From positions 1 to 29,853 of the IMG/VR virus record IMGVR_UViG_3300030943_000132: DNA of 29,853 bases; one strand, given 5' to 3'. The position numbers and the translations under genes are program-made. The stretch is from a virus. This document shows, piece by piece, positions 3,840-24,129 of the stretch; positions within the stretch are counted from its first letter, which is position 1; every line of letters starts with the position of its first letter. Below the pieces are notes generated by a model that worked only from the letters and a program-made list of their open reading frames with translations, did not search any database and was not told the DNA's origin.

Positions 3840-3840
3840 A

Positions 3841-4236: not shown

Positions 4237-4258
4237 GTTTCAAAGATATGAAATAAAT

Positions 4259-4489: not shown

Positions 4490-4490
4490 G

Positions 4491-9126: not shown

Positions 9127-9144
9127 AATTTGTTTTTTGTTTAA

Positions 9145-9172
9145 CAAATATAACCTTTATACGCTTTCAAAA
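9145..9172 (-). promoter_or_regulatory. Candidate Bacteroidota promoter for the tape measure gene
   Basis: On the minus strand TATATTTG (9152-9145) matches the -7 box TAnnTTTG, within the longer GTTATATTTGTTA also seen at 24.77 and 28.99 kb. The nearest TTTG lies 15 bases upstream, shorter than the usual 17-23, so the -33 match is weak. It follows a terminator, which makes a restart of transcription here plausible. Confidence 0.5.
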
Positions 9173-9174
9173 GT

Positions 9175-9206
9175 AAAAACCGTAACAAAATAAATTGTTA
9201 CGGTTT
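9175..9206 (-). terminator. Intrinsic terminator after the tail chaperone
   Basis: On the minus strand, a perfect 12-bp stem (9206-9195 with 9188-9177), a 6-base loop and a run of five T ending at 9175. The stop codon of the frameshifted chaperone product (9200-9198) lies inside the stem, so ribosomes finishing the long form would run into the hairpin. Confidence 0.82.
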
Positions 9207-9377
9207 CGCGCTGCTTACCATTCTCTTCGCCTCTTCTTTTTTATATTTGGCTGTTTGATCACTTAGTTCCTGAATTTCATCAATGGTTAATTTTTCCAAG
9301 TGTTCAAGCATTAATCCAGACATTCCGGATTGAACCAAAATAACCCATAATCGAATTAAAGAACCAGCGAAGGGAAA
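9198..9377 (-). CDS. Tail assembly chaperone, -1 frame extension (gpE'/T-like)
   Basis: This frame has no strong start of its own but runs open, in the -1 frame relative to the preceding 279-aa gene, from a run of nine T followed by CCC to the stop at 9200-9198. A -1 slip would give a product of about 332 residues: roughly 273 from the zero frame plus 59, including SLIRLWVILVQSGM, EHLEKLTIDEIQELSDQ and a lysine-rich tail. The layout of a tail chaperone just before the tape measure, with a C-terminal extension made by -1 frameshifting, is conserved in P2 (E/E'), Mu and lambda (G/GT). An alternative is a free-standing gene from the ATG at 9323 (41 residues). Confidence 0.75.
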   Translation of the reverse strand, partial: FPFAGSLIRLWVILVQSGMSGLMLEHLEKLTIDEIQELSDQTAKYKKEEAKRMVSSAKP

Positions 9378-10195
9378 AAAAAACTTGCCAAGTTAATTAA
9401 ATCCACCCTGGCAGTTCTTGAAGGGTCACTTGGGTGAGCAATTACCATAGTGGTATCAATATTTCCTTCCAATTCCAAAATCTTTTCCCTAAGAAAGTTT
9501 ATATCCTTGAAAGAAAGATTATCCAATTCTAATTTTATACCTGGCTTTTTTACTCCCTTTTCATCCTGTCTTATAACAAGGGGATTTCTCATTTTTATTA
9601 GCGTATGAGATGTAATTTCATCTTCATGTTTTGGTCCAAACAATTCAGTTGTTTCACCATCTAACATTGAAAATTCTATTGTTTCGCCACTTTTAGGAAG
9701 AATGATAGTTTGTTTTTTATCATTTGCTATTTCTGAATAGCTATTCCATTTTTTAAAATATGGCTTGGCAACAAAATTTACTTCTGAATTTTTTTTATCA
9801 ATCAATTCAGTTTCTCCTTCAACTTCTTCTTCAGCTTCTTTTTTTACTACATCAACTACCGCAAAGGAAAAATCTACTTCGTATTCATGCTTTTCTCTTT
9901 TTCCTCCAGTAAGCGCAAATTCATAACTGAATTTAAATTTTGGGTCATAGTCATTTGAAAATTGACGTAATTCGATTAAAGCGTGTTTTCGGTCTGCCTC
10001 CAGCATTCTTTTAACATGATTTTGATTAACTGGAGAAATATCCCCAAGAGAAAGAATACAATCAGTTAACATTTCCGTATACGCGTTTCTGGTATCGGAT
10101 TTTTTTGTTGTTAACATTCTTTCATGTTTACCGGTAAGTTCTTGTATAACACATTTAACACCCGATAATAAAATAAATTCTTTTGTTTGTCGCAT
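9356..10195 (-). CDS. Tail assembly chaperone (gpE-like position), zero-frame product
   Basis: 279 residues between the tail tube and the tape measure, where contractile phages encode the chaperone that wraps the tape measure during tube growth. Residues 20-80 contain KKSDTRNAYTEMLTDCI and KRMLEADRKHALIELRQFS, resembling the 'L..aDR...l..lR..s' segment of phage tail chaperones and T4-type baseplate assembly proteins. A Glu/Lys-rich linker follows (KKEAEEEVEGETELIDKK). The last codons are Ser-Phe-Phe-Phe-Pro over the slippery T9-CCC. The stop at 9358-9356 comes soon after, as in programmed frameshift genes. It is three times longer than P2 gpE, so homology is uncertain; order and frameshift support the role. 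Confidence 0.72.
   Translation of the reverse strand: MRQTKEFILLSGVKCVIQELTGKHERMLTTKKSDTRNAYTEMLTDCILSLGDISPVNQNHVKRMLEADRKHALIELRQFSNDYDPKFKFSYEFALTGGKREKHEYEVDFSFAVVDVVKKEAEEEVEGETELIDKKNSEVNFVAKPYFKKWNSYSEIANDKKQTIILPKSGETIEFSMLDGETTELFGPKHEDEITSHTLIKMRNPLVIRQDEKGVKKPGIKLELDNLSFKDINFLREKILELEGNIDTTMVIAHPSDPSRTARVDLINLASFFFPSLVL
9372..9384 (-). other. Probable -1 programmed ribosomal frameshift site
   Basis: On the minus strand: G, nine T (9383-9375), then CCC. Zero-frame codons are AGT-TTT-TTT-TTC-CCT. A one-base slip back on consecutive TTT codons keeps full codon-anticodon pairing and gives TTT-CCC-TTC. No obvious stable stem was checked downstream. Confidence 0.75.
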
Positions 10196-10253
10196 AGTAT
10201 AAAGTTTATGTGAGCAAGATAATCAATTTTTGTATTAGCAAAAAACATTTAAC

Positions 10254-10281
10254 AAAAAAAGGGACCGAAGCCCCTCTTTTT
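10254..10281 (-). terminator. Intrinsic terminator after the tail tube gene, UUCG tetraloop
   Basis: On the minus strand GGGGC-TTCG-GTCCC forms a 5-bp core closed by the very stable C(UUCG)G tetraloop. The flanking AAAAAGA and TTTTTTT extend pairing to about 12 bp with two G-U pairs and supply the T run. It lies 20 bases after the tube stop codon, so it can raise tube and sheath transcripts over downstream genes. Confidence 0.88.
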
Positions 10282-10300
10282 GCAATATGACAGACAAAAA

Positions 10301-10771
10301 TTATATTCCGATTTCTGGAAGTTTAATACAATTTGTGCAAGAAAAAACAATTTCTTCCATTACGTTTTCACCATCTCCTTCTCTTTTAAAGGATAGACCA
10401 GTAACTTTTTTCGGCCAAAGTTCTATCAATTCATATCTGGCCAAAGTTCTATAAGCACCTGGAGGGCCTAAAGGTGCAACCATTTTAAGAATTGCATAAC
10501 GGGAAGAAATGTGTCGTGGTTGTGAATGAACCAAATCCAACCATGGCCAAACCCAATTATCTGGACCTTCTACTGGCATTACTTTTTTAACAGTAAAATC
10601 AGTTACCTTTTTTTTCCCTGGTGTTTTAGTATCTGGCATTCCGATACCGGCACCATGCATTACTTCAGCAACCTCAACATCTGGAAGAGTGCATTCTTGA
10701 ATTAATAATTGGTCTATACCTGCAATTTCCAATACGAAATCGTAGTTTTTTCTCATGTTTGCGCTAATCAT
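10301..10771 (-). CDS. Tail tube protein (T4 gp19 / P2 FII type)
   Basis: 156 residues, the usual size for T4 gp19-like tube proteins. Characteristic features are KNYDFVLEIAGIDQLLIQEC with LPDVEVAEVMHGAG near the N-terminus, then KKVTDFTVKKVMPVEGPDN with W and a closing RTLARYELIELWPKKVTGL. Tube monomers stack as hexameric rings inside the sheath. Two in-frame ATGs (10771 and 10756) are possible starts; the second gives a product starting MRKNYDF. The gene directly follows the sheath, and a UUCG terminator lies just after it. Confidence 0.9.
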   Translation of the reverse strand: MISANMRKNYDFVLEIAGIDQLLIQECTLPDVEVAEVMHGAGIGMPDTKTPGKKKVTDFTVKKVMPVEGPDNWVWPWLDLVHSQPRHISSRYAILKMVAPLGPPGAYRTLARYELIELWPKKVTGLSFKREGDGENVMEEIVFSCTNCIKLPEIGI

Positions 10772-10797
10772 ATGGCTATCTTTTAATGATTTAAATA

Positions 10798-12723
10798 TTA
10801 AAGATTATCTTGAACTACTGCAATCTGTAATGTTCCAGAATCAGTACTTGTTACTTCAATACCAATGTATTCAATCGCTGTAATAGGAATAAAAACAAAT
10901 CTTGCTCTATATCTTCCAGCACTTATTTCATTTGGAGTATTGAATGTTACATCCTGAATACTATCTGCATTTTGATCACCAATCCAGAACCAATTTTTTC
11001 CTTCACCGGCATAAATTGCACGATTATTTTCAAGTAATGTAATCTCTGGTTTAACAGCCCTATATAAACCACTCCATGATAATGGATCATTAGGATTGAA
11101 GACGTATTTATCGGTAATAGGTTTTATTTTTCTTATGATGTAAATCATCAATTCGGCAATGTTTTGTTTGGATAGAAGTTTTGTTTGGTCTTTCAAAAGA
11201 CTTCTATTTCCCCAATAAACAGTACTACCGGATTCATGTACGATAACAGCATTCACACCAGCTTCATAAACAGTATCAAATACACCTGAAGCAGTTTCGG
11301 CCCCAAGATTTCTAACAAGACCTTTATTCTGATCTATTTTACCTCTCTCTAAACCTGCTTCTGAAATCCATTCACCAAATTTAGAATCTACTGAAGCCCT
11401 AAGACCGCAAACATCACCGATACCAACCAATGTTTTATCTTTGGTTACATCTTGCGGATCATAATAGATAACATCACCAAAAACATAATTGGACTGCCAA
11501 GAATCGATTAATCCATTGTCTCTATATGCTTTTGCTTCATCAAATGTTAATCCTTTAGGAATAGCTAAACGAGCCAACATATTTTTTCTTCCAACAACAT
11601 AACTATTATATGCAACATCCACCGCAGCTACGTTTCTTTCTATGTTTGCCAAACGAGAAGCATTCATTACTGAATCAAAAGAATATAGTCCTGTTTTTGC
11701 AGTAACATTACCTACATAGTCGTTATCGGTTAATGCTGATGTATCATAAGTTCCACCTGCTAAAGTAGCACTACTATAAGGTAAACGAGTAGTATAGGAT
11801 ACCAAATCACACAATGTTAATTTTAAATTCAATGCTGCAATTTCTGCATCTGTTGGGGTTCTTGAAACATCAAGTACTGTAACGTCTAATTCAGTATATC
11901 CAGGCAAGGAAGTTTTTATATCTACTTTTCCAGAAGTACCAGATTTTGCAGCTGAAACAGTAATTACTAAACCTGCATATCCTGGACCAATTTCTTTTCC
12001 ATTCCAAACAGATACACCAGCATTTCCAGAAACAATTGTTGAAACGCCACCAGAAAAACCAGTTACTGTACCTGTAGCAGTACCAGTAATATTTGAACCA
12101 AGTACATAAGCATTTGCATCAGTACCTGTTCCTGTAGGAGCCGAAACAATAACATTTGCACCAGAACCAGAAGCAGAATAACCATGCGTTCCCGTCAATA
12201 AATTTATTGCAGCACGAATTCCTGTAGCTGCTTCATTGTTGGTATCCGGGGTAGAACCAGAACCGTGTCCATCAATTTCATATTCTCCCAATGAAATAAT
12301 TTCATTTCCATTGTTTGAAACCAATTCTATGATATCACCAACTTCACCTGTAGAAGTAACAACAAAGGTACCAGTTGCAAGTGTTTCTGATGTTGTGTTT
12401 ACCGTTTTTGTAACAGCTGCTTTTGTTCCTACGATTGTAGATTTATCTGAAACGTTTGTGTAGTGCGCTACACGTGAAACCCACAGCTTCGCGCCTCGTT
12501 TCAACATTTTAATTGCTTGATGTACTCCATCCATTCCATCAATGTATGAACCAAGTTTTCTGAAGAATTCAATATCCGAAGAAATAAAAATCGGCTTATT
12601 TGGTTCACCTCTTTCTGTAGCTATTTGCACACAAAAATATCCCTTTGGAGAAGGTTGACTTAGTACTGATGCATCTGTTACATCAATTACTGATTTTGGA
12701 GCGCCTGTTAATGTTGTTGACAT
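10798..12723 (-). CDS. Tail sheath protein with inserted domain
   Basis: 641 residues. N-terminal strands (GYFCVQIATERGEPNKPIFI, then FFRKLGSYIDGMDGVHQAIKM and RGAKLWVSRVAHY) and the C-terminal handshake region (LLSKQNIAELMIYIIRKIKP, FNPNDPLSW, NTPNEISAGRYRARFVFIP) are typical of contractile sheaths. Between about residues 90 and 240 lies a Gly/Thr/Ser-rich insertion (GDIIELVSNNGNEI, EAATGIRAAINLL, SGANVIVSAPTGTGTDANAY, GTVTGFSGGV), resembling a beta-sandwich often found in phage tail proteins and probably displayed on the tail surface. The 70-base gap upstream contains TATTATTG, a one-mismatch -7 box. The tube gene follows after 26 bases. Confidence 0.93.
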   Translation of the reverse strand: MSTTLTGAPKSVIDVTDASVLSQPSPKGYFCVQIATERGEPNKPIFISSDIEFFRKLGSYIDGMDGVHQAIKMLKRGAKLWVSRVAHYTNVSDKSTIVGTKAAVTKTVNTTSETLATGTFVVTSTGEVGDIIELVSNNGNEIISLGEYEIDGHGSGSTPDTNNEAATGIRAAINLLTGTHGYSASGSGANVIVSAPTGTGTDANAYVLGSNITGTATGTVTGFSGGVSTIVSGNAGVSVWNGKEIGPGYAGLVITVSAAKSGTSGKVDIKTSLPGYTELDVTVLDVSRTPTDAEIAALNLKLTLCDLVSYTTRLPYSSATLAGGTYDTSALTDNDYVGNVTAKTGLYSFDSVMNASRLANIERNVAAVDVAYNSYVVGRKNMLARLAIPKGLTFDEAKAYRDNGLIDSWQSNYVFGDVIYYDPQDVTKDKTLVGIGDVCGLRASVDSKFGEWISEAGLERGKIDQNKGLVRNLGAETASGVFDTVYEAGVNAVIVHESGSTVYWGNRSLLKDQTKLLSKQNIAELMIYIIRKIKPITDKYVFNPNDPLSWSGLYRAVKPEITLLENNRAIYAGEGKNWFWIGDQNADSIQDVTFNTPNEISAGRYRARFVFIPITAIEYIGIEVTSTDSGTLQIAVVQDNL

Positions 12724-12793
12724 AATCCGTTTTTTTAGCCTTTAAATTATTTACAATAATAACTTTTTTCTATATCAATAATAAATTTTTTGC

Positions 12794-13441
12794 CTAAATG
12801 TTTTCTGTTGGAACGTTTTCAATACTAATATCGGTAATTTGGGACGTTCTATAAAGGAAAATTCTATCTTCCAAAATTATATCCATGAAGTCATATCTGG
12901 CAGCACGTTCGATATAATCCTTACCAGATTTATCCAATGTAGTTATATAACGAGTATTGAAGCCTTCAGTTGTTTTGTTACCCAAAGAATTGATTCCCTT
13001 AAAATAATTTTTTTTACGTAGTGAATTGAATAATATACTTTGAATCAATCTATCATAATTTACATCATCCGTAATATATCCAATTTGATATTCTATATCA
13101 ACGGTTCCAGAGGCATTTTCATAAACATTAAAATATGTTTCTTCTCCTTCAACTATCTTTTCATAAAAATTGGTACACTTGAAACCAAGGGAACCATCTG
13201 CAATATCTCCACGATTAATAAAAATAGAATTATAATCCAATTCTCCCCTGGCCTTTGGGTCCCCAACACCTTTTATATCAATAATCTTTTTACCTGAATC
13301 TCTAATGGCTTTTTTTGCAGCTTCGTAACCTGCAACATCATCAGTTGGTTGATACAGCGCAATATCTGGTAGATACCCAAGGGAAACTATTTTTTTCCGG
13401 ATAACTTCAAAAACGGCACGTTCTATTTCATCGAAAGTCAT
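12794..13441 (-). CDS. Putative tail terminator / neck protein
   Basis: 215 residues, no family recognised with confidence. It begins FDEIERAVFEVIRKKIVSLGYLPDI, a helix like that at the start of tail terminator/completion proteins that take up 'elieavr..l...lp'. A mixed alpha/beta body follows with DVNYDRLIQSILFNSLRKKNY. It is placed last in the neck cluster, directly before the sheath, where gp15/gpU-type terminators are encoded. The first codon overlaps the previous stop as ATGA. Function is inferred from position. Confidence 0.6.
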   Translation of the reverse strand: MTFDEIERAVFEVIRKKIVSLGYLPDIALYQPTDDVAGYEAAKKAIRDSGKKIIDIKGVGDPKARGELDYNSIFINRGDIADGSLGFKCTNFYEKIVEGEETYFNVYENASGTVDIEYQIGYITDDVNYDRLIQSILFNSLRKKNYFKGINSLGNKTTEGFNTRYITTLDKSGKDYIERAARYDFMDIILEDRIFLYRTSQITDISIENVPTENI

Positions 13442-13938
13442 AGCTTCTTTTTTATTTCCTTTACAAATATTCCGCTATCGCGTATCCAGGATTTTAATTC
13501 TAATAGAGTAGGTTTCCAAAGCCTACGTGGTTTTATGTTTGCCTTTTCAGAACCATATTCCATTATCAATGCAATATTGGCTACTTCAATAGGTTCTTTT
13601 CCTTCTTCTGACTTTGCATAAACACCTCTTTTTACACCAACAAAACCATATCCACCGGCAACAAAGGAAGTAATTGATTGTAGATAGGTAGAAGAAGAAA
13701 TTAATGTTTTTTCACTTTTTCCAAGTGCTATTTTCCTTTTCTTATAAGCCTTATTCAACTTTCTCCATTTCAAATCTTGGTTTACAATATGCTTTACAGC
13801 TATTTTTTCACCTTTCAATGTTGTTTGAGCCAATGCAACATTCATGGCTTCATCAACTTTTTTATCCAGACCTTCCAATTTATTTACAATCGACTTCCAA
13901 TCACCGTAGGTTGTTGATGTAAATTTTGTGTTACCCAT
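13438..13938 (-). CDS. HK97 gp10-like head-tail completion protein
   Basis: 166 residues. The N-terminal helix (KSIVNKLEGLDKKVDEAMNV) and the C-terminal NIALIMEYGSEKANIKPRRLW followed by KPTL match HK97 gp10-like/minor tail completion proteins, whose hallmark is 'a..vEfGt....aRPFlrpal'. These proteins act at the neck, joining tail to head. It overlaps the next gene by four bases (ATGA) and the preceding gene by eight. Confidence 0.78.
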   Translation of the reverse strand: MGNTKFTSTTYGDWKSIVNKLEGLDKKVDEAMNVALAQTTLKGEKIAVKHIVNQDLKWRKLNKAYKKRKIALGKSEKTLISSSTYLQSITSFVAGGYGFVGVKRGVYAKSEEGKEPIEVANIALIMEYGSEKANIKPRRLWKPTLLELKSWIRDSGIFVKEIKKKL

Positions 13939-14395
13939 TTAGAATATCTATTTTGAAAGTAAATCTTACCAATAAATTTTTGTCAATAAGTGGAGCTCCA
14001 ATGGTATTTCCCATTATCAATAATTTTTGTTCCTGGTAAATAACCCAATCAGAGTTTGATTCTCCTATAAAATTACCTTTTACATCGACTAATCCAACAT
14101 CTTTCAAATCATCGATATGAAAAAGAATATATCCATCACTATCATCGAAAGAACCAGCACCATCTGAATTTTGATTATCCTTTCCAAGTCCACCTGGTCC
14201 AGGATTAAATACAACAAGGGCCTCCAAATTATATTCCTGTGTTTTTCTTTCTTGCCTATTTTCCTGAAATCTATCAAGACTTGTTGAACGTTTGATATAT
14301 TTTATAGGATAACGCATGAAAGTATCCGTAACGCTTTTAATTGCGCTTTCAATCTGTTTCAATTGAGAAGAAGAAAGAAGGCTTTTCTTTGCCAT
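13931..14395 (-). CDS. Putative neck / head-closure protein
   Basis: 154 residues. The N-terminus is a basic helix (LKQIESAIKSVTDTFMRYPIKYIKR), then a Gly/Asp-rich loop (about residues 65-90) and strands DGYILFHIDDLKDVGLVD, SDWVIYQEQKLLIMG and NLLVRFTFKID. A beta barrel with an extended loop is what head-closure (gp16/stopper-like) proteins show. No family motif is certain. The start overlaps the previous stop as TAATG. Confidence 0.58.
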   Translation of the reverse strand: MAKKSLLSSSQLKQIESAIKSVTDTFMRYPIKYIKRSTSLDRFQENRQERKTQEYNLEALVVFNPGPGGLGKDNQNSDGAGSFDDSDGYILFHIDDLKDVGLVDVKGNFIGESNSDWVIYQEQKLLIMGNTIGAPLIDKNLLVRFTFKIDILNG

Positions 14396-14883
14396 TAGGA
14401 AATAATTGAAAACGGTTTAATCATATCATATTTATACTGTGCGCACAAATTGATATTTATCCCCAATGTACGTGAAACCGCACAGGCTTGTTTAAGCATA
14501 TTTGCAGCCATTATTTCCGTATCTTGTGCTAACGTAACAGTTTTTTTCTTGTCCAATTGTTCAAATTCAGCTTCAACAACATCTGCTTTTGCTTTTTTCA
14601 AGAACGAATTATTTACTTCTTCCCCGGTAGAAGAATTTCCTCCAGCAAGTTCAATTGATTTGTTTTGAAGTAAATTATATGATACAAGCCAAGAAATTAA
14701 AATTCTCTCCAATGGTTTATATTCATCTTCTTCTTCAACTTTTTCATCCGTTTTTTTAAGATACGGTTGTAAATAATACATTACTTGTATCATTTCAGAG
14801 TTGATAAGAGAATCTTTTGATCCATCACTAAGAAACGGAAGTTTTTCTTTTACTAAACCTAATATCGGTTGAAGATTTGCCAT
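14395..14883 (-). CDS. Putative head-tail connector (adaptor) protein
   Basis: 162 residues, predicted almost entirely helical: LGLVKEKLPFL, NSEMIQVMYYLQPYLKK, ERILISWLVSYNLLQNKS, KADVVEAEFEQLDKKKT and DTEIMAANMLKQACAVSRTL. All-helical adaptor proteins of the gp6/gp15 family are encoded at this point between capsid and closure genes and bind the portal. The assignment is by position and predicted fold only. One base separates it from the preceding stop; its own stop overlaps the next start as TAATG. Confidence 0.58.
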   Translation of the reverse strand: MANLQPILGLVKEKLPFLSDGSKDSLINSEMIQVMYYLQPYLKKTDEKVEEEDEYKPLERILISWLVSYNLLQNKSIELAGGNSSTGEEVNNSFLKKAKADVVEAEFEQLDKKKTVTLAQDTEIMAANMLKQACAVSRTLGININLCAQYKYDMIKPFSIIS

Positions 14884-14884
14884 A

Positions 14885-15274
14885 TTATAATTCTGAATCT
14901 TTTAAATATCCTTTTCCAAGTTGTCCTACTTTTATTGGAGCAAACTCTTTGGCTTCATCACCATCTGGCATAACAGTACTTGGAAATACTCCCAGAACAT
15001 CAACCATTAAAACTCCAGCATCCAATAATTTGCTTTCTTCTCTATCAACTGGAATTTTCAAAAGATAGTTTTCATCACCAATTTCTAAAGCAGTTTCCCC
15101 TTCTGCTGGGTCCAATGCGAATTTAACACGATTGGAATCTTTTCCTTTGATATACAATTCAGCTTTTATAATATTTGCTGTTGACATATCAACCGTTGCA
15201 TCTTCTGCATCACGGATTTCTACAATTAGTAGTTTTGATTCGCCTTGTTTGAAAGTAAATAATTCCTGTGCCAT
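14885..15274 (-). CDS. Beta-rich structural protein of unknown role
   Basis: 129 residues from the ATG at 15274. A longer frame from a GTG at 15313 would include the terminator stem as coding sequence, so I reject that start. The sequence alternates strands (FTFKQGESKLLIVEIRDAED, IIKAELYIKG, LLKIPVDREES) and resembles the immunoglobulin-like or BppU-type N-terminal domains of phage structural proteins. It lies between capsid and connector genes, so a capsid accessory, fibre or neck whisker is possible. A terminator lies just upstream, so it may be read at a reduced level relative to the coiled-coil gene. Confidence 0.6.
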   Translation of the reverse strand: MAQELFTFKQGESKLLIVEIRDAEDATVDMSTANIIKAELYIKGKDSNRVKFALDPAEGETALEIGDENYLLKIPVDREESKLLDAGVLMVDVLGVFPSTVMPDGDEAKEFAPIKVGQLGKGYLKDSEL

Positions 15275-15296
15275 AATGTTTTTTTTAGAGTGTAAG

Positions 15297-15330
15297 AAAA
15301 AAGGGGTATACACCCAAGCGTAAACCCCTT
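15297..15330 (-). terminator. Intrinsic terminator after the coiled-coil gene
   Basis: On the minus strand AAGGGGTTTAC (15330-15320) pairs with GTATACCCCTT with one mismatch, around an 8-base loop, and is followed by six T (15302-15297). It lies 23 bases after the coiled-coil stop codon. Confidence 0.8.
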
Positions 15331-15352
15331 CTATAATTTTAACCTTTGAGGG

Positions 15353-15784
15353 CTATTTTTTTTGTTTGTTTGCTTCAGCAATGATTTGCGCAGCTTCATC
15401 TTTTGCTGATTGAATGATTTTTTTAGAATCATCTTCAGCTTTTAATTTGGCTGAAATAATTGTTTCTTCAGCTTCTGTTTTCGCGAATTCAACAATTTTT
15501 TTTGCTTCTTCGTATGCTTCAGCAATGATTTGTTTAGACTTATCTTCAGATTTATGTACTGAAATAGTTGGAGTTTTTGATATATAATCATTGTATTCGG
15601 CTTTTGTAACCTCTACAATCATCATTGATAGTTTAGCCCTTTGGAAAGCAGGAGTTTGTTCCAACGCTGCTATTTGATCGTATCCAACAATTTTTCTTGA
15701 TTCTTTCAAGGACTGCTTTTCATCCCAATAGATAGAAGCGTTTTTGTCCTTGTTTAATTTGAAGTATCCTACTATTTGTGCCAT
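15353..15784 (-). CDS. Structural protein with C-terminal 11-residue-repeat coiled coil
   Basis: 143 residues, between the major capsid and connector genes. The N-terminal 75 residues are mixed (IVGYFKLNKDKNASIYWDE; KSRKIVGYDQIAALEQ-like helix; LSMMIVEVTKAEYNDYI). From about residue 83 the protein is one long helix made of 11-residue units: SKQIIAEAYEE, AKKIVEFAKTE, AEETIISAKLK, a 15-residue unit, then AAQIIAEANKQ. Hendecad repeats form straight or right-handed coiled coils. The function is unknown; a capsid accessory or scaffold-like role is possible. The DNA shows matching direct repeats (gcttcagcaatgatttg at 15374 and 15516). Confidence 0.72.
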   Translation of the reverse strand: MAQIVGYFKLNKDKNASIYWDEKQSLKESRKIVGYDQIAALEQTPAFQRAKLSMMIVEVTKAEYNDYISKTPTISVHKSEDKSKQIIAEAYEEAKKIVEFAKTEAEETIISAKLKAEDDSKKIIQSAKDEAAQIIAEANKQKK

Positions 15785-15799
15785 GATATAAAATTTTTT

Positions 15800-15844
15800 G
15801 GGGTTTAATTTTTACAAATATAAAAATTAAACCCCAAGTTACAA
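15800..15844 (-). promoter_or_regulatory. Candidate promoter inside a perfect palindrome downstream of the capsid gene
   Basis: A 15-bp perfect inverted repeat (15800-15814 with 15821-15835; 17 bp if the flanking TT/AA are counted) encloses a 6-base loop. The loop and adjacent bases form TATATTTG (15822-15815, minus), a -7 box, with TTG at 15844-15842 exactly 19 bases upstream. A T run does not follow on the minus strand, so it is not a standard terminator. It may end or protect the capsid mRNA and restart transcription. Confidence 0.6.
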
Positions 15845-17137
15845 CTATGAATTGAATTCTTCAGCAATTCTTGTGTCAATATCCATATATGAAGGGAATT
15901 CATGACCTACATAAGTGATAGACTTGTCAAGCAATACACGTGCATCTCTACGAAGAATAGCGAATCCAACATGGTCAGAAACGTAAAGTTCGTTTTCTTG
16001 TGTAGCCGGATTTCTTTGGCGCTCCATTGTCATTCCACGATATTGCAATTTTGCCATTGCCATTGCAGAAGAAAGGAACAATACCTGGTTATCTGGCAAT
16101 ACGTGGGTATCCATTTCAAATCTTTCTGGAACACCAACAATCGATCTGATATCAGCTAATTTAGTTCCGAATTGTCCACCCTCAAATTTATCGATTCCTG
16201 TGATATCAATTCCATCTTCTTCATTTGAAATCAATCTATCAGCAGGTCTACGTAAACGTGTCATTCTTGTGAATACTCGTTTCATAGCCTTGTAATCGAA
16301 TGTGTTTGCAGTAGTAACACCTACAACCGGTGCTGATTCAGAACCATCAGCCTGTTCACCACTAACCAAAACTCTCATTGCTTCAACATCAGCACCAATT
16401 GCCATATCATTACCAACTTCCACAAGGAATTGAGCAATCATATCAATAGTACTTTCGTAAATCAATTCATCCGTAATAACGAAACCGGTACCAACTTTGA
16501 AAACTTTAACGTCTTTCTTACCGAAACGAACTGAACCAACTGGAATATTTCCACCCTCTGCAATTCTTGTTACGTTACCATCCCCTCTTTCAATACGAGG
16601 CATAGTTAAAGAACGAACAGACATTGGTTGAGTTGTAGCAATCCAATTTTGGTGCATTGAAGCGTGTTCATAAGCTACGCGAATCAATGATGCAAAAACC
16701 TCCGGAATGATAAAACGATAATCACTTGGAAAATCTTTTGTTGATGTAACTCCATTTGAACCAAAAGATTCAATCAATGCATCTTCCATTTGAATTTTAT
16801 TCATTCTTGGACCTCCAAGAACCTCTGACATATGAGAGAATGTATCTCTTTTCATATCAATTCCAATGGCAGAAAGAAACCCTTTCATATCTGTACCAAA
16901 GAATAATTCTACTCCTTTATGGAAAGACAAATCTTTAGGACCTACAGTAATTTCTTTACCTAATTTATTTTTTACGACACCAAGCCCAAGTCTTGTTTCG
17001 TATAGTTGTTTTTGAAAAGCACCAATAAGGTTTTCCTCAAGTGCTGTTCTTACTTTAGATGCTTCATATCTACCAACCTTATTTTCTTTAAGGTGTTTGA
17101 AGTGTTCCTGTACGTTTTCTAATGATAATGTTTCCAT
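15845..17137 (-). CDS. Major capsid protein (HK97 fold)
   Basis: 430 residues. Residues about 160-260 show the HK97-fold signature: SVRSLTMPRIERGDG, RIAEGGNIPVGSVRFGKKDV, KVFKVGTGFVITDELIYES and IDMIAQFLVEVGNDMAIGAD. The C-terminal part has DHVGFAILRRDARVLLDKS as in other capsid P-domain ends. The N-terminal 120 residues are helical and charged (ENVQEHFKHLKENKV...ALEENLIGAFQKQLYE) and may act as a delta domain removed by the prohead protease; this is inferred. The gene is flanked by decoration and coiled-coil genes; no SD-like site precedes its ATG. Confidence 0.93.
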   Translation of the reverse strand: METLSLENVQEHFKHLKENKVGRYEASKVRTALEENLIGAFQKQLYETRLGLGVVKNKLGKEITVGPKDLSFHKGVELFFGTDMKGFLSAIGIDMKRDTFSHMSEVLGGPRMNKIQMEDALIESFGSNGVTSTKDFPSDYRFIIPEVFASLIRVAYEHASMHQNWIATTQPMSVRSLTMPRIERGDGNVTRIAEGGNIPVGSVRFGKKDVKVFKVGTGFVITDELIYESTIDMIAQFLVEVGNDMAIGADVEAMRVLVSGEQADGSESAPVVGVTTANTFDYKAMKRVFTRMTRLRRPADRLISNEEDGIDITGIDKFEGGQFGTKLADIRSIVGVPERFEMDTHVLPDNQVLFLSSAMAMAKLQYRGMTMERQRNPATQENELYVSDHVGFAILRRDARVLLDKSITYVGHEFPSYMDIDTRIAEEFNS

Positions 17138-17188
17138 GTACGAGTATATTTAGTTTTTTAAATCTACGTTTAATTTATCAATTACTAA

Positions 17189-17635
17189 TTAAGATCCTGG
17201 AACGATTACTGGAGCCTCAAGCAATAATACTACAATAGCAGCATTTGCAGAACCACCTGAAAGAACTATTCCCATTGCATAATCACCTTCCACGGCTGCA
17301 ACATATTCTGGGATACCATCAGCATCTTTATTTCCATTTGGTTTTACAAACGAACCAGCGGATAAAGTACCACCAATTGCTTTAGCTTGTAAATCAGAAG
17401 ATGCATTTACAATTACGGAAATCAAATCAGAAAGTTCACCACCAACTTTTACGTAACCAATTGGGAATTGAGAACCCAATGTTCTTTTTGTTACAGTGTT
17501 GTTAGCTGAAATATATACTTCCTGGCCCTCTGATAGGGTGCCATCGAATCCACTTGTTAACGACAAAGAAAGTTCATCTTTGCAAAAATTCTTTCTTAGC
17601 GTTGGGTTTTTAGAAGAAATTGAACCTGTTCCCAT
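17189..17635 (-). CDS. Capsid decoration / cement protein (DUF2190-like)
   Basis: 148 residues of short beta strands and Gly/Ala/Val-rich turns: FDGTLSEGQEVYISANNTVTK, FPIGYVKVGG, AIGGTLSAGSFVKPNG and GDYAMGIVLSGGSANAAIVVL. This pattern ('aG..V....g.......Gva......G....v...G') is that of DUF2190-type capsid stabilising proteins. It is encoded between the protease-scaffold and the capsid protein, as in many HK97-fold phages. It probably trimerises on the capsid surface. Confidence 0.75.
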   Translation of the reverse strand: MGTGSISSKNPTLRKNFCKDELSLSLTSGFDGTLSEGQEVYISANNTVTKRTLGSQFPIGYVKVGGELSDLISVIVNASSDLQAKAIGGTLSAGSFVKPNGNKDADGIPEYVAAVEGDYAMGIVLSGGSANAAIVVLLLEAPVIVPGS

Positions 17636-17659
17636 TTTTTTATGATTTTATAGTGAAAT

Positions 17660-19075
17660 TTAAACTTGTTCTGAAAGGTGTGTTGTTCTGATTGGTGCTT
17701 TTTTGCTTACATCATCCGGCTCAGAAGAACGGAATGAAATCTTGTTTGAACCACAAGAATCACAACTACAAGCAAAATCTTGAATCAACTTTCCGTTGAA
17801 TAATTTAATTTTTGCTTCGAGAGATGCAACATCAGAAGATTTTTCAATCTCTAAAATGATTACTTCATCTACTTTACCCATTACTGTTTTTGAATAAGAA
17901 GATTTTGCTTCTTCTCTCAATTTGGAAATATAAGTAGTACCTACTTCACCGATAGCTTTCAAAGATTCTCTTTCTGTTTTTACAGAAGTCAATTCTTGAT
18001 TCAATGTTTGTATATCGGTTTCCTTTTCTACCACTACAGCTTCCAAATCACCGGCTTTTTTCTTGATAGTCTCTAATTCTGTAGCTGGAAGAAAAGACAA
18101 TGTTTTCAATTTGTCTAATGTTACTTCTTCTTCAGTACATCCAAGGAATTGAGCAAGTTCTTTTTTCAACATATCGTCAATTTTTTGTGGGTTGTTTTCA
18201 TTAGGAAAATTTTCTTTTCCCATAAATTCTTTTCTCAAATCTAAGAGATTTTCTTTTACAAAAGAATTTATTACAAAATATTTTTTTTCCTCGCTGTAAA
18301 TATCCTTCGTTTTATCATCATCAAATTTTGAGTTGGAAAGAATTGATGATCTATCAATGTTGATATAATTTCCGTTTTTATCCTTCATCTTTGCGTATGG
18401 GTCCGCGCCAAGATAAACCAATGATGATTCTACAAAGTCGTGAATTTGTGTTACTATCCTTCGGACCATAGTACCATCAATCATTTCCCCAAGATGCCAA
18501 TAGAAATCATTTTCATTCTCAAACTCATGTGAAGCCTCCCAATCAAAAATTACCGTAACGGAACTTGATTGAATAGGAGAAACTGGAGAAAGCATTTTTC
18601 TACATAAATCTGGATTAATTACCGAATCGATAACATAGGGACCATCAATACCAGCAGGAATATCCCCTTTCTTTGGTACAAATTGGCATTGTCCAATAGT
18701 TCCAATATCAGAACCTATTCGCAAATCATGATTCTTATAAGCAGGTTTTCCACTCATTAAACTGACTGCTTTTTTTAGGACATTTTCATCACTGAAATCT
18801 GTAGCCTTCCAAGAACCAGCACCTACAGTAGTAGCCGATATAAGGCGAAAAGGAAACAAATAAAAATCTTCTGGTTTTGGTACTAAAGAACTATTTCCGT
18901 TTGAATCAAAAGCTAATTGACCTTGAACCTTTCTTTGGATTTCGTTTGCCTTGAAAGATTCACTAAATCCAAAACGTTCTTTTATTGAAGAATCAAGACC
19001 TTTATCCTTTGGAATAGCTAAAGATTCGCCAAGGTTTTCAATAGTCAAATGAAATTTTTCGCCTTTTACTTTCAT
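17660..19075 (-). CDS. Prohead protease fused to scaffold protein
   Basis: 471 residues. The first ~240 residues look like a prohead serine protease: SGKPAYKNHD (His116), IDGPYVIDSVINP and PIQSSSVTVIFDWEASHEF (candidate Ser170-172), then HLGEMIDGTMVRRIVTQIHDF. His and Ser in this order is the arrangement of the gp21/HK97 gp4 families. Residues about 300-430 are a charged helical coiled coil (KKKAGDLEAVVVEKETDIQ...LNQELTSVKTERES), typical of scaffolds. The tail holds three cysteines (436, 438, 441) and RSSEPD (449-454), a hexapeptide repeated in the portal. One protein probably templates the shell and then cleaves it. Catalytic residues are inferred by eye. Confidence 0.78.
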   Translation of the reverse strand: MKVKGEKFHLTIENLGESLAIPKDKGLDSSIKERFGFSESFKANEIQRKVQGQLAFDSNGNSSLVPKPEDFYLFPFRLISATTVGAGSWKATDFSDENVLKKAVSLMSGKPAYKNHDLRIGSDIGTIGQCQFVPKKGDIPAGIDGPYVIDSVINPDLCRKMLSPVSPIQSSSVTVIFDWEASHEFENENDFYWHLGEMIDGTMVRRIVTQIHDFVESSLVYLGADPYAKMKDKNGNYINIDRSSILSNSKFDDDKTKDIYSEEKKYFVINSFVKENLLDLRKEFMGKENFPNENNPQKIDDMLKKELAQFLGCTEEEVTLDKLKTLSFLPATELETIKKKAGDLEAVVVEKETDIQTLNQELTSVKTERESLKAIGEVGTTYISKLREEAKSSYSKTVMGKVDEVIILEIEKSSDVASLEAKIKLFNGKLIQDFACSCDSCGSNKISFRSSEPDDVSKKAPIRTTHLSEQV

Positions 19076-19097
19076 GTTCCTGAGTTTTTAATGATAA

Positions 19098-19105
19098 CAA
19101 ATATA
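19098..19105 (-). promoter_or_regulatory. Possible -7 promoter box before the protease-scaffold gene
   Basis: TATATTTG on the minus strand, about 22 bases before the ATG at 19075, in the 69-base gap after the portal. I see no convincing TTG at 17-23 bases upstream, so this is a weak call. Confidence 0.35.
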
Positions 19106-19144
19106 TGTATCTTTTTTATTTAAAAGGAAATTTTGTCCCAATTA

Positions 19145-21628
19145 TTAAATATCGGCAACTATTCGGCCTCTACAATGACCATGATAAGGAGGTGTCATTA
19201 TACCCAATTTTTCCAATTCAGAAGAATCAAGTTTTTTAAAATCATCAATTTTTATTGATGTAGCAAACGGTGTTTTATCCGGAACATCTTCAACTGGAGA
19301 AGCAACAACTTCTTTAATCAAACTTACGGCCGTAGCAACCTCAAAGGTTTTCCCGTTCATGTGCGCGCACCATTCGCAAGTTTTTTGATCTGATACTTCT
19401 ACTATTTCAAACTTGGCTACCTTTGCCTGTTCAATATACATTACTGAAGCATAATTACGGGACTTGTTTAAAGTAGTTTCGGTAATCCTTCTAATCTTAT
19501 ATGATTCAAGGTCAGCAAGTTCTTTAAATTCTTTTAGGAATTCAGTAATTAAATTTTCATCCTTACCTATTGGATTTCCATTTTCAATGTAGTAAGCATT
19601 TACCCATTTTATAATTCTTGTCCTGGTATCTTTATCGGCAATGAATTTACCTAAATAAAAATCATCTGACCTTTCCAAATAATCTACGGTACGAAAATCT
19701 GGAAGGGAAAACATTCCATCCGGTGCCGTGAAAAATGAATTTTGTGATTTTCCAGTTTTGGTACTTTTGAAAATACTTTTATCCTTTCTATAGTGTTCGT
19801 AGGTAGAAGAAACATATTTTTTTATAATAGGGTCTATCTCCTGGGAAAAATTCTTGTCCCAATCCTTATACAGATTTACTAAAATCAAATCAGTCATTTG
19901 TGATTCTGTGTATGGCCTATTTGAATTATTCAATTCTTTTTCCAATGCACTTACAGCCTTTGAAACTGCTTTTGAATATGCAGCTTCAATTTCCTTATTG
20001 TATTTATTTTCTTGCTTAGTTAAAAAATCATCGTGCAAATCAGCACCTTCATAGGTGAAAACTTTTCCTTCAATTGGATATGATTTTTCAGCTGTCAAAT
20101 ATTCACCATCACTTATAATTGAATAATCGTATTGAGAAGAATCACCTTTCATCTTCAAAATTAAATCATTCAATTCTTTTGTATTGGAAGTATCAGCTGC
20201 TTTCTTATCTATTTTCGGTTGTGCTGCAACCGGTGCTACTGGTTGTGGTGCTTCTTTTTCAGCAGGTTCATCATAACCTAATTCATTGGCTGCTTGTGTT
20301 TGATCAATAATACCAGCATCTCTTTTTGATAAGACGTTTGCGATTTTAATTTGTTCGGCCTGTTCATCTTTCAATTGATCGCTAATACTTGGCATTTTAA
20401 ATTTAACCTCAATGTAACCAGGATTATATCCAGCTAAAACAAGGTCCAACATAAAAATTTCTTCCAATGCTTTTGCTACCAATTGTTGATAGTTTCGCAT
20501 TTGCATTGACATTTTGGAAAGAATAACACGTCCAAAAGTTTCAGTAACAGAATAATTTTCCCCATGTAAATTTGGGTCTTGTTTCATTCCGGCATAAATC
20601 ATTGATTTGATAATCTTCATCAATTGTTCAGCGCCGGCAGTATTCATATTCTGGCCTTCTAACTTAAATTCTACTCCACCTTTTATACCAACAGCAACAC
20701 CTTTAGCCATTTGCTTTTCAGCCTCTGGAACAATTTCTGTTTTAAGAAATGATGAAACTCTTTGATAATATTGTTCTTCTGTTTCTTCTGTTCTTTGTTC
20801 TGGAGCATTTACTAAAACAGAAAGAAGTCCCAACATTCCCATTTTTTTCATCATGGTTTTGAAACTTCCAATCATATCATATTCAGTAATGATATCTTCC
20901 AAAGCAGAAAGAAAAGGAGGAACACCATAAGGAGATTCGCTTACGTGACGCAATCCAAGATACGTATATGTATTTGGATTCAATGGAATATAACCTGCTA
21001 AAGTAGCGCGTGAAGTATTCCAACGCGGTTGTTGTACCCAGGAATATGTATCTTCATATTGATCGTATATTGCGCGAATCCATTTAGGAGAAACGCGAAC
21101 TACTTTTTTAATTCCCTTCAGGTTTTTATCAACCACTTTTTCAAATGACAATGCACCGAATATTGATAATTGAGTAAAAAAATCATTTATCAAAACAGTA
21201 AGTCCACCGGCAAATTCATAATAATTATCCGCACGGTCCCTTATATGTGACTTCATTTTTTGTTGAAGCGCTGAAGGCATTTTATCTGAAAACGAAATTT
21301 CATATTCAGTACTTGCAAGGGTAACAATATTCTCTATAGCGTAGGAAATGTGCCTATTATGTACGGCAAAGTATTCAAGTGCTTCAAAATGTTTTAATGC
21401 AAAATCTGGAGTTAGTACGCTGTTTTTCCCCATAAAACCAGAATTATTATTATCTGGTTCTGAAGAACGCACTCCAGCAATGGGAGAAAACTTTGCTGGT
21501 TGTGAGGTTATAAATTGACTGTCCTTGATATCATTTTTTACAACGTTATCATGTATTACCTCTCTTTTTTCTTGGGAATGTAGTTGAAGTAAAGCGTTGT
21601 TAAGTTGGTTCTGATATGTGTTTTCCAT
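19145..21628 (-). CDS. Portal protein fused to MuF-like head morphogenesis domain
   Basis: 827 residues. Residues ~70-440 look like a portal: DFALKHFEALEYFAVHNRHI, FFTQLSIFGALSFEKVVDK, VVRVSPKWIRAIYDQ and YGVPPFLSALEDI, followed by a long helical stem region (KTMMKKMGMLGLLSVLVNAP). The C-terminal ~300 residues match the Mu gpF / SPP1 gp7 minor head domain: TETTLNKSRNYA, a CxxC (Cys751, Cys754) in DQKTCEWCAHMNGKTF, and the terminal PPYHGHCRGRIV (813-824). In Mu these are separate genes (29 and 30). The N-terminal 65 residues are polar and contain RSSEPD (54-59). Portal forms the DNA entry ring; MuF domains are packaged minor head proteins. Confidence 0.85.
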   Translation of the reverse strand: MENTYQNQLNNALLQLHSQEKREVIHDNVVKNDIKDSQFITSQPAKFSPIAGVRSSEPDNNNSGFMGKNSVLTPDFALKHFEALEYFAVHNRHISYAIENIVTLASTEYEISFSDKMPSALQQKMKSHIRDRADNYYEFAGGLTVLINDFFTQLSIFGALSFEKVVDKNLKGIKKVVRVSPKWIRAIYDQYEDTYSWVQQPRWNTSRATLAGYIPLNPNTYTYLGLRHVSESPYGVPPFLSALEDIITEYDMIGSFKTMMKKMGMLGLLSVLVNAPEQRTEETEEQYYQRVSSFLKTEIVPEAEKQMAKGVAVGIKGGVEFKLEGQNMNTAGAEQLMKIIKSMIYAGMKQDPNLHGENYSVTETFGRVILSKMSMQMRNYQQLVAKALEEIFMLDLVLAGYNPGYIEVKFKMPSISDQLKDEQAEQIKIANVLSKRDAGIIDQTQAANELGYDEPAEKEAPQPVAPVAAQPKIDKKAADTSNTKELNDLILKMKGDSSQYDYSIISDGEYLTAEKSYPIEGKVFTYEGADLHDDFLTKQENKYNKEIEAAYSKAVSKAVSALEKELNNSNRPYTESQMTDLILVNLYKDWDKNFSQEIDPIIKKYVSSTYEHYRKDKSIFKSTKTGKSQNSFFTAPDGMFSLPDFRTVDYLERSDDFYLGKFIADKDTRTRIIKWVNAYYIENGNPIGKDENLITEFLKEFKELADLESYKIRRITETTLNKSRNYASVMYIEQAKVAKFEIVEVSDQKTCEWCAHMNGKTFEVATAVSLIKEVVASPVEDVPDKTPFATSIKIDDFKKLDSSELEKLGIMTPPYHGHCRGRIVADI

Positions 21629-21851
21629 TATTTATGCCTCTGTTTATAAGGAAATATTCCTCAAATTTAGCACAATAATCTACATATCTTTTATTGGAAT
21701 GCAAATTTATTAAATCGGTTTTTTGCGATTCGGTCAATTTTACATTTAAAATATGGGGGAAACTTCGTGAAGTTAATCGAATTCCGAATTCAATACAGGC
21801 TTCAGATTCTCTTAGAATTCGTTCTTTTGCAGGGTCTTTTTTAGCTTTCAT
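21600..21851 (-). CDS. Small protein of unknown function upstream of portal
   Basis: 83 residues, not recognised. It is basic with helical segments (DPAKERILRESEACIEFGIRL; TESQKTDLINLHSNKRYVDY). Its 3' end overlaps the portal start by 29 bases, and a terminator lies just before its start, so it is probably the first gene of the head transcript unit. Small genes at this point are often small terminase subunits, but no helix-turn-helix or terminase motif is apparent and I do not assign that. Confidence 0.55.
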   Translation of the reverse strand: MKAKKDPAKERILRESEACIEFGIRLTSRSFPHILNVKLTESQKTDLINLHSNKRYVDYCAKFEEYFLINRGINNGKHISEPT

Positions 21852-21856
21852 CGATT

Positions 21857-21889
21857 TAAAAATAACCGGAAAGGAACCACCCTTTCCGG
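21857..21889 (-). terminator. Intrinsic terminator separating early block from head module
   Basis: On the minus strand CCGGAAAGG (21889-21881) pairs perfectly with CCTTTCCGG (21874-21866) around a 6-base loop, followed by TTATTTTT. It lies between the 65-aa gene and the 83-aa gene before portal. A copy of AACACGTA (21891-21898) abuts its 5' side. Confidence 0.82.
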
Positions 21890-21901
21890 AAACACGTACT
21901 A

Positions 21902-22099
21902 CTAAAAGGACAACTGGTCCCGTTTAGTTGGCTTCGACCCCGTAAAGGAATCTATTTTTTGTTTGGATTCATTGATTGTTTTAGCTGTATGAGGATTATG
22001 ATCCCAATCACGGAATTCGTATAATTCTCTGATGGTATTATATACAACGTATACGTTTTTGTACCAAAAGGGAGGCTTAAATGCTTTTTTGTTGTCCAT
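21902..22099 (-). CDS. Small protein of unknown function
   Basis: 65 residues, unrecognised. The first half is aromatic (PPFWYKNVYVVYNTIRELYEF), the second polar and basic (NESKQKIDSFTGSKPTKRDQ). It follows the 111-aa gene after one base and precedes the terminator at 21.87 kb, making it the last gene of this transcript. Confidence 0.5.
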   Translation of the reverse strand: MDNKKAFKPPFWYKNVYVVYNTIRELYEFRDWDHNPHTAKTINESKQKIDSFTGSKPTKRDQLSF

Positions 22100-22100
22100 A

Positions 22101-22436
22101 TCAATCTAAGTAATAAATAAATGCTATCATAAAACCCTCTTTTCCAAGATTGGTTATTTTTGATTTATCGAATTTAACATCCATTACTCTATGGCCTTCA
22201 AAAAAATCCCCAATCTTCATAGAAGAACGAACATTTCCAATAATTCTATCTTTGCCATTTACAAGGATACCCAAAATTCCTTTTTCATCAATTGTCTTTC
22301 TGCAATATCCTTTTTTTAGAAAATCCCTTTTGATTTGTCTATTGAAGGTTAATTCAAAAAACTCATAGCATCGATTGGTATTTTTATCAAAAATAACTTT
22401 TGGCTTTGGTTCTTCTGCTATTTCTTTTTCTTGCAT
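22101..22436 (-). CDS. Protein of unknown function downstream of HNH endonuclease
   Basis: 111 residues from the ATG at 22436. A longer frame opens at a TTG (22529) but would overlap the HNH gene by 112 bases, so I chose the ATG, which overlaps it by 19. The protein is mixed alpha/beta: NTNRCYEFFELTFNRQ, FLKKGYCRKTID, GILGILVNGKDRIIGNV and NLGKEGFMIAFIYYLD. I see no known motif. Confidence 0.5.
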   Translation of the reverse strand: MQEKEIAEEPKPKVIFDKNTNRCYEFFELTFNRQIKRDFLKKGYCRKTIDEKGILGILVNGKDRIIGNVRSSMKIGDFFEGHRVMDVKFDKSKITNLGKEGFMIAFIYYLD

Positions 22437-22774
22437 TCCAATAAATGTTTGTATAATTCTATAAACTCTTTTTTGTATAAATAATTCGCATGATGCGAAA
22501 AGTTTTTTATTTCTGTTTGAATATGGCAATCATGGCATTCTAACTGTAGGTTTTTTTTATCCCATGCAAACTCTACCATACCATCATTTTGACACGCATT
22601 AACGCTTATTATGTGAGAAGCTGAACGAGGTTTTCCAGTAGTACCACAAGCCCAACAATATGATTTACCATTGTATATAGCATCTTCCTTGAATTCGTCC
22701 TTTGCTTTTTTAATTCGGGGATCAATCTTGCTTTTGCTCAATCGATCCCCGGAACTTGTTTCAAAACTACCCAT
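22418..22774 (-). CDS. HNH endonuclease
   Basis: 118 residues. It has the zinc-binding and catalytic pattern of HNH nucleases: CWAC (Cys40, Cys43), SASHII (His54), DKKN (Asn75) and LECHDCH (Cys80, Cys83, His84). HNH proteins of this size encoded next to head genes often help large terminase cut DNA at packaging; others are free-standing homing nucleases. The upstream cold-shock gene stop overlaps its start (TAATG), so it is part of a phage operon rather than an isolated insertion. No terminase gene is visible beside it. Confidence 0.78.
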   Translation of the reverse strand: MGSFETSSGDRLSKSKIDPRIKKAKDEFKEDAIYNGKSYCWACGTTGKPRSASHIISVNACQNDGMVEFAWDKKNLQLECHDCHIQTEIKNFSHHANYLYKKEFIELYKHLLECKKKK

Positions 22775-22965
22775 TAATATCTTTTGATATCTACAGCATT
22801 AAGCCCTTTTTTTCCTTCTGCTTCATCGAATTCTACTTTATCACCTTGCTTTGGGTCTTTGTATTTCAATCCGCTGAAATGGAAAAACACTTCTTCTCCA
22901 TTATCTTTTGTAATAAAACCAAATCCTTTTGATTGGTTGAAAAACTTAATCGTACCTCTTTTCAT
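22774..22965 (-). CDS. Cold-shock domain protein (CspA family)
   Basis: 63 residues, the full length of a cold-shock domain. It has the RNA-binding motifs RNP1 (KGFGFI, 13-18) and RNP2 (VFFHFSG, 26-32), beginning MKRGTIKFFNQSKG and ending GLNAVDIKRY. Such proteins bind single-stranded RNA or DNA and melt RNA structure; phage copies may act as antiterminators or assist translation. Directly upstream, 22994-23063, is a long structured RNA that its own mRNA might carry as a leader. Its stop overlaps the HNH start. Confidence 0.92.
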   Translation of the reverse strand: MKRGTIKFFNQSKGFGFITKDNGEEVFFHFSGLKYKDPKQGDKVEFDEAEGKKGLNAVDIKRY

Positions 22966-22993: not shown

Positions 22994-23063
22994 AAACGCC
23001 CCAACTTTTGGTGATGAAATAAATCATCTGTTCCAACTTTGCGATTTCCCTATTGGGGCGTTT
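22994..23063 (-). ncRNA. Structured RNA element: leader of csp or long-loop terminator
   Basis: On the minus strand an 11-bp perfect stem (AAACGCCCCAA at 23063-23053 side and TTGGGGCGTTT closing at 23004-22994) encloses 48 bases. Inside are a TTGG/CCAA stem and a GATGA/TCATC hairpin (23013-23017 with 23024-23028). ATTTTAG follows. It lies between the tRNA-like element and the csp gene. It could be the end of the upstream transcript or a 5' leader structure. Confidence 0.55.
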
Positions 23064-23090: not shown

Positions 23091-23203
23091 TGAACAGAAT
23101 AGGAATCGAACCTATAAGGGAACAATTTCTGGTAACGTCTTACCTTACTCTCTATTTACCTACAACATTTGTTGTTAGCGGTTACCACTTTCGCCACCTG
23201 TTC
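23091..23203 (-). tRNA. tRNA-like element with aberrant anticodon region
   Basis: The 5' end is GAACAGG (23203-23197), pairing with TCTGTTC (23098-23092; one G-U), with A as discriminator (23091) and no encoded CCA. The D-arm GCG-AAAGTGGTAAC-CGC contains the conserved A14 and G18-G19. The T-arm ATAGG-TTCGATT-CCTAT is a perfect match to consensus. Between them are 62 nt rather than about 23. One fold places AACAA/TTGTT as the anticodon stem, leaving a 46-nt loop and a standard 5-nt CCCTT variable region; another gives a long variable arm with the GGTAA-GACG-TTACC hairpin. No loop with U33 and a readable anticodon is found. It may be non-decoding, intron-like or decayed. Confidence 0.6.
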
Positions 23204-23209
23204 AATTTT

Positions 23210-23854
23210 TTAAAATACTAATTTAACAGTTTTAAATTTACCATTATATTCTATTTGCGCAATGTAAACTCCAGGAATGTTTTCAACCAAAATATATTCT
23301 TTTCCACTTGATTGAATAGTCATATAAACGCTTACAGCACCTTTTGAATCAATCAACCTAATACTTCCTTCTGTGCCATCGGTCAAAATTTTATATTCTG
23401 TTTCTGATATCTTAACAAAAGATATATCCGTTTTTACAATCGATTCATCAATTGGAGTAGTGCAATTTTGAATGTTTACCGTATAATCAACTACATACTT
23501 CCCAGAGCAAGTATAACCGGTTGGAATCCTATATTCGCAATGAATAACAGTTGTTTGAGTAAGACCGCTACAATTCAATGTTTGGCCTGTATTTATTACC
23601 TGATTTGTAATACCGTTTACCCAATATATTTGTCCAAGATTATCCGGATCGTTAAAGAGTGCGTTTCTTGTGAATGCTTCATTGATGCACTTCGTAGTAC
23701 TTCCTTCTGGGTTATTAAACCAGAAATAAGGATTCGTTATACATTCGGCTGTAGGTGGGTCCATCATTGGGTCCTCTGGATAGAATGTTAATTGAGCGAT
23801 AGAATTAAGTGCTATTGAAAGCACTAATAGAATTGAGAATATTACCTTTTTCAT
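23210..23854 (-). CDS. Secreted protein with type IX secretion C-terminal sorting domain
   Basis: 214 residues. An N-terminal Sec signal peptide (basic MKKV, hydrophobic core FSILLVLSIALNS, cleavage before Gln21) leads into a region with six cysteines (38, 56, 95, 106, 116, 131), consistent with disulfides outside the cytoplasm. Residues ~143-214 match the type A sorting domain of the Bacteroidota type IX system: GSIRLIDSKGAV, a strand SGKEYILVENIPGVYIAQI, then NGKFKTVKLVF ending the protein. In the host such domains send cargo through the outer membrane and are cleaved with anchoring or release. In a phage this suggests a lysogenic-conversion or surface-changing protein. The cargo function is unknown. 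Confidence 0.8.
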   Translation of the reverse strand: MKKVIFSILLVLSIALNSIAQLTFYPEDPMMDPPTAECITNPYFWFNNPEGSTTKCINEAFTRNALFNDPDNLGQIYWVNGITNQVINTGQTLNCSGLTQTTVIHCEYRIPTGYTCSGKYVVDYTVNIQNCTTPIDESIVKTDISFVKISETEYKILTDGTEGSIRLIDSKGAVSVYMTIQSSGKEYILVENIPGVYIAQIEYNGKFKTVKLVF

Positions 23855-23856: not shown

Positions 23857-24129
23857 TTATAGAGATTGTTTTTTTTTGTTTAATAATTCAATTATTGCAT
23901 CTTCAATAAAATTTTTTACTTCGCTTTTATCAAAGTCCTGAACGATTGGAACCAGAAGATTATATTTTTCTTGATCTGTTAAATCAAGACCATCAAAATC
24001 ATAACACTCTTCTTTCAAGTCGTCAAGAATAAATGTAACATCTTCTATTTCCCAGGTAGTGAATGCGTAACGTCTGTTACGCAATTCACTAATTAGTTCT
24101 TCATCGGAGAAATTTTTTAAATCTGCCAT
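23857..24129 (-). CDS. Small acidic protein of unknown function
   Basis: 90 residues, rich in Asp/Glu and predicted helical (NFSDEELISELRNRRYAF; KSEVKNFIEDAIIELLNKK). No family is recognised. It lies between the LPD29-like gene (2-base gap) and the secreted protein gene (2-base gap), so all three are probably on one transcript from the promoter at 24.77 kb. An acidic cytoplasmic protein in an early block could mimic DNA or inhibit a host factor, but nothing specific shows this. Confidence 0.55.
   Translation of the reverse strand: MADLKNFSDEELISELRNRRYAFTTWEIEDVTFILDDLKEECYDFDGLDLTDQEKYNLLVPIVQDFDKSEVKNFIEDAIIELLNKKKQSL

Follow-up and report, generated by a model that had tools for sequence, protein, structure and literature searches.

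A 214-residue protein encoded on the minus strand of a 29.85-kb linear virus record (the stretch of DNA analysed here, hereafter the window) at positions 23210..23854 combines a Sec signal peptide with a C-terminal domain resembling the type A sorting domains of the type IX secretion system (T9SS). We consider it likely, with a probability of roughly 0.7, that the gene is an accessory gene of the phage, encoding a product that would cross the inner membrane by Sec and the outer membrane by the T9SS of a host from the Bacteroidota. T9SS export is the favoured reading because a TIGR04183 match at the exact C-terminus is combined with a signal peptide that conforms to the Q-rule. Points against it include the weak domain score, the missing motif A, and the partial motif E; in addition, four distant relatives of the window phage, as identified by their portals, all lack a T9SS tail (0/4).

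The gene, its phage setting and its product

Nearly all plausible genes of the window lie on the minus strand. The structural module of a contractile-tail phage occupies the region from the left end of the window to 21.6 kb, with a portal bearing a MuF-like tail, a head protease, the major capsid protein, sheath, tape measure, and baseplate. The cargo gene lies upstream of this module, on the same contig and the same strand, and its start codon follows the stop of a preceding 90-residue gene of unknown product (23857..24129, minus strand) by 2 bp; given the shared strand and the 2-bp gap, the two genes are probably cotranscribed. Past the cargo gene come a tRNA-like element and then, at 19145..22965 on the minus strand, genes for a cold-shock protein and an HNH endonuclease, small genes, and the portal-MuF fusion (identified through PHROGs and Pfam). 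Codon use and GC content (0.332) of the cargo gene fall within the spread seen for the remaining genes of the phage. The original prediction had placed the gene inside a phage accessory block and had named residence in host DNA as a ground for its own rejection; the tightly packed array of phage genes, with structural genes on the same strand and contig, supports a location in phage DNA.

The tRNA-like element (23091-23203, minus strand) starts 6 bp past the cargo stop codon and matches Rfam RF00005 at 31.3 bits, i.e., above the gathering score; it was not called by ARAGORN. Its acceptor and T arms are good, and a surplus of ~39 nt corresponds either to an anticodon-loop insertion, as in the Rfam alignment, or to a variable arm of excessive length in an RNA resembling tRNA-Leu. 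The start of its D arm is similar to that of a tRNA in contig L086. A perfect 11-bp inverted repeat (AAACGCCCCAA / TTGGGGCGTTT; 22994-23063), the arms of which are separated by 48 nt, is located between this element and the cold-shock gene. A portal related to that of the window (31% identity) is also encoded on contig CANQPD010000018.1, which is binned as Dysosmobacter and is possibly a misbinned phage contig.

Residues 1-20 of the protein (23795..23854, minus strand) read as a predicted Sec signal peptide of the classical three parts, MKKVIFSILLVLSIALNSIA|Q, with cleavage predicted at SIA|Q21. Glutamine at position +1 of the cleavage site (the Q-rule) is a feature of the Bacteroidetes (PMC5837995), and the fit of this signal peptide to the rule thus supports a Bacteroidota host for the window phage. 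The same residue occupies the predicted mature start in 48 of the 48 full-length phage T9SS cargos that were picked for a signal-peptide-like start.

The mature cargo (approximately residues 21-140; 23435..23794, minus strand) contains all six cysteines of the protein, at positions 38, 56, 95, 106, 116, and 131. No credible homologue of this segment was found in Pfam, NCBIfam, PHROGs, PDB, INPHARED, PLSDB, IMG/VR, or GTDB contigs, the IMG/VR and GTDB scans requiring conserved 8-residue words and thus reaching close relatives while missing distant ones; the cargo is therefore an orphan in the sense that no close relative is known. For the protein as a whole, INPHARED, PLSDB, IMG/VR, and GTDB contigs likewise yielded no credible close homologue. 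The original prediction of a Sec signal peptide, six cysteines, and a cargo resembling nothing recognisable accordingly stands, the last of these within the reach of the scans.

Several candidates for the cargo were set aside. A Pfam scan of the segment returned nothing significant, and an Ig-like CHU_C-associated domain (PF19081) gave no match at E <= 10 in residues 21-140. A PDB sequence match to salicylate hydroxylase (E 0.43) is of the order expected by chance, and PHROG 16509, of unknown function, matched residues 85-171 at E 0.015.

An exported product need not serve the phage. T9SS cargo otherwise characterises the Bacteroidota (PMC10202324), and the lack of a T9SS tail in the phages with related portals would also suit a recently acquired host gene (a moron), the T9SS-exported product of which benefits the bacterium through adhesion or niche fitness and plays no part in phage competition. 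Such an origin concerns purpose and not export, and overlaps with the explanation preferred here. We regard it as rather unlikely, though as the strongest of the alternatives: no bacterial homologue was found in GTDB contigs (by the scan that reaches close relatives only), GC content and codon use match the rest of the phage, and no lysogeny genes were recognised in this partial contig except for a small HTH regulator.

The C-terminal domain

The type A-like sorting domain, as modelled, covers residues 136-214 (23213..23449, minus strand), within which the TIGR04183 match spans residues 158-213 (23216-23383), i.e., ending one residue short of the C-terminus. This was the sole match in a search of the ORFs across the window (24.6 bits; cut-off 23). 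The isolated tail of ~75 residues scored 25.2 bits (E 1.2e-5) against the same cut-off, and the whole protein fell just under it with 21.6 bits (E 1.5e-4 across 18,950 models). Neither the reversed tail nor the cargo alone gave a match. With PF18962, scores of 8.8 and 13.9 bits remained under the cut-off of 27. The search with the TIGR04183/Por_secre_tail profile that the original prediction had proposed, with failure to find a hit counting against it, thus did not refute the assignment, the isolated tail scoring above the TIGR04183 threshold and the whole protein below it, with PF18962 also below threshold.

A phage-only HMM built from 54 distinct phage sorting domains gave the tail 13.9 bits, compared to a maximum of 12.3 among 5000 composition shuffles, and placed the cargo ORF first among the 253 ORFs of the window. 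Since this score tops the shuffles and ranks first in the window, the resemblance of the tail to a sorting domain exceeds chance by sequence comparison, yet the tail is a divergent example.

Type A sorting domains are described as having motifs A-E and a seven-strand Ig-like fold (PMC10202324). In an alignment with 38 phage tails, limited to the tail region, motif B (DxxG; glycine G172) and the GVY of motif D (residues 195-197) are kept. Motif A (PNP) is absent from the tail, and motif E is partial, with KLVF at the end compared to the usual K-I-I-K-x of other phage tails, so that the usual near-terminal lysine is missing. The domain has the C-terminal position, opposite the signal peptide, and by the criteria of PMC10202324 the tail is, as read from its residues, a divergent type A domain. 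The stretches GSIRLIDSKG, IPGVYIAQI, and KTVKLVF quoted for it at the outset are present in the protein, and the claim is supported as one of homology. According to PMC10202324, efficient secretion needs the final 13 residues and, in particular, the lysines of motif E; with the protein ending in KLVF, export might thus be poor.

AlphaFold2, supplied with the tail and the 38 phage tails as an alignment, predicted a seven-strand sandwich (pLDDT 85, pTM 0.72), and a single-sequence model of the full protein was poor (pLDDT 40). Among the Foldseek matches of the tail model is 8gl8_D (TM 0.69/0.72), a chain of 75 residues from the SprA-PorV-PPI-RemZ translocon complex, in our reading the RemZ tail; many Fn3 domains score equally well. 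Matches in the viral library include a phage entry bearing the name 'Secretion system C-terminal sorting domain' (TMq 0.75). Absence of a beta sandwich had been put forward as an outcome that would overturn the assignment, and seven strands were predicted instead, though this test leans on the family alignment. Because the phage-tail alignment itself carries family information, the model agrees with the sorting-domain assignment and is not proof of one.

The loss of motif A and of the near-terminal lysine, the whole-protein scores under curated cut-offs, and the equally good matches to generic Fn3 structures could together indicate a periplasmic or outer-membrane-associated phage protein, in which the Ig/Fn3-like C-terminal domain does not work as a T9SS signal, being either the remnant of a sorting tail or a sandwich of other origin. 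We judge this to be unlikely, given that the profile match is significant and placed at the exact C-terminus and that motifs B and D are kept; moreover, the last 22 residues of HBP35 (motifs D and E) were enough for the export of GFP in work cited in PMC10202324.

Proposed export and role

In the export pathway that we favour, (i) the protein would be exported to the periplasm by Sec and cleaved at A20|Q21, after which (ii) it would fold there and its six cysteines could form disulfides. (iii) By homology, the host T9SS would recognise the C-terminal Ig-like domain and move the cargo of ~120 residues across the outer membrane, such that (iv) the cargo would end up at the cell surface or in the medium. 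(v) The surface of the infected cell would thereby be altered, most likely through the masking or blocking of phage receptors, i.e., superinfection exclusion. Recognition by the T9SS is the step most open to doubt, given how far motifs A and E diverge.

Surface change, a block to superinfection, and adhesion are all plausible roles, as originally suggested. That blocking superinfection is the purpose is speculative and our best guess, and the idea is shared with PMC7468147. A further-reaching conjecture is that the cargo founds a new family of small cysteine-rich phage surface proteins, sent through the T9SS to block superinfection, and that such exports are a widespread and largely unstudied strategy of Bacteroidota phages; this we consider doubtful.

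A further alternative is that the gene is bacterial DNA, fused to phage sequence in a faulty assembly or at the border of a prophage. Although no second contig was found over the cargo gene (23.2-23.9 kb), with the 16,970-bp contig of another record that shares 99.98% identity with the window spanning positions 3419-20388 only, the common strand, the 2-bp gap to the upstream gene, the phage-like genes on both flanks, and the uniform composition make such an artefact highly improbable.

If T9SS export does take place, the phage takes advantage of its host's outer-membrane secretion apparatus to present a protein while the infection is under way. A single case would be modest news; the 72 IMG/VR contigs and the isolated Flavobacterium phage described below make the idea testable in culture, since the isolation host of phage immuto is known by name (LMO8) and Flavobacterium johnsoniae offers T9SS mutants.

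Relation to known systems

Phage-borne T9SS cargo is a class already described, and what is new here is the orphan cargo. In 2020, Bellas et al. reported three genes of Cryophage that encode type A sorting domains, with superinfection exclusion or inter-strain competition already proposed for their products (PMC7468147), and T9SS domains beside crAss-BACON ORFs were reported in 2019 (PMC6949934). A consensus-tail search of annotated phages returned six records, including Flavobacterium phage vB_FspM_immuto, whose gp15 carries a cohesin and a TIGR04183 tail (44.8 bits) and is encoded two genes away from one for a C-type lectin. One scan of IMG/VR yielded 72 contigs with a T9SS tail (54 distinct tails), and in 72/72 the tail continues up to a stop codon close to the matched segment. 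Among 41 larger records tested, a terminase was above cut-off in 5 and a tail sheath in 4 (seven records in all), the remaining records counting as viral by IMG/VR's own classification. The layout of signal peptide and sorting tail recurs in the isolated Flavobacterium phage and in the IMG/VR contigs. Any implication in the original prediction that phage T9SS cargo lacks precedent therefore has to be dropped in light of these two publications, phage immuto, and the 72 contigs.

Two further observations concern these other phages. In Flavobacterium phage immuto_2-6A (5342-8237), the C-type lectin gene is clustered with the cohesin and T9SS-tail gene, and the lectin protein displays by eye a dockerin-like stretch in its C-terminal half, for which no Pfam dockerin match was obtained; the cluster may represent phage-encoded cohesin/dockerin surface display. 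Many viral contigs (L010, L012, L013, L016, and others) encode long T9SS-tailed proteins of about 670 to 1370 residues with cysteine-containing repeats (GC.D..A.NY...AN.DDGSC), a recurrent type of phage cargo.

The window protein shares with the TIGR04183/PF18962 domain its C-terminal place, motifs B (DxxG) and D (GVY), a seven-strand model, and a signal peptide at the opposite end; it differs in having no PNP, only part of motif E (KLVF), a weak score, and a phage as its carrier. As with the Cryophage cargos (PMC7468147), it is the product of a gene, probably of a Bacteroidetes phage, with a type A sorting domain for which use of the host T9SS is proposed; however, the Cryophage proteins are an endoglucanase, a GH39 protein, and a PA14 protein, whereas the window protein has a short cargo that is rich in cysteine and lacks known close relatives. 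The gut phage genes of crAss-BACON cluster 2 (PMC6949934) likewise lie near the head module and encode T9SS sorting domains, but their cargo contains BACON repeats, and no BACON domain was detected in the window protein. The gp15 of immuto, an isolated phage, likewise has a signal peptide, a small cargo, and a C-terminal T9SS type A domain; in contrast to the window protein, gp15 possesses a strong canonical tail and a recognisable cohesin, clustered with a C-type lectin gene.
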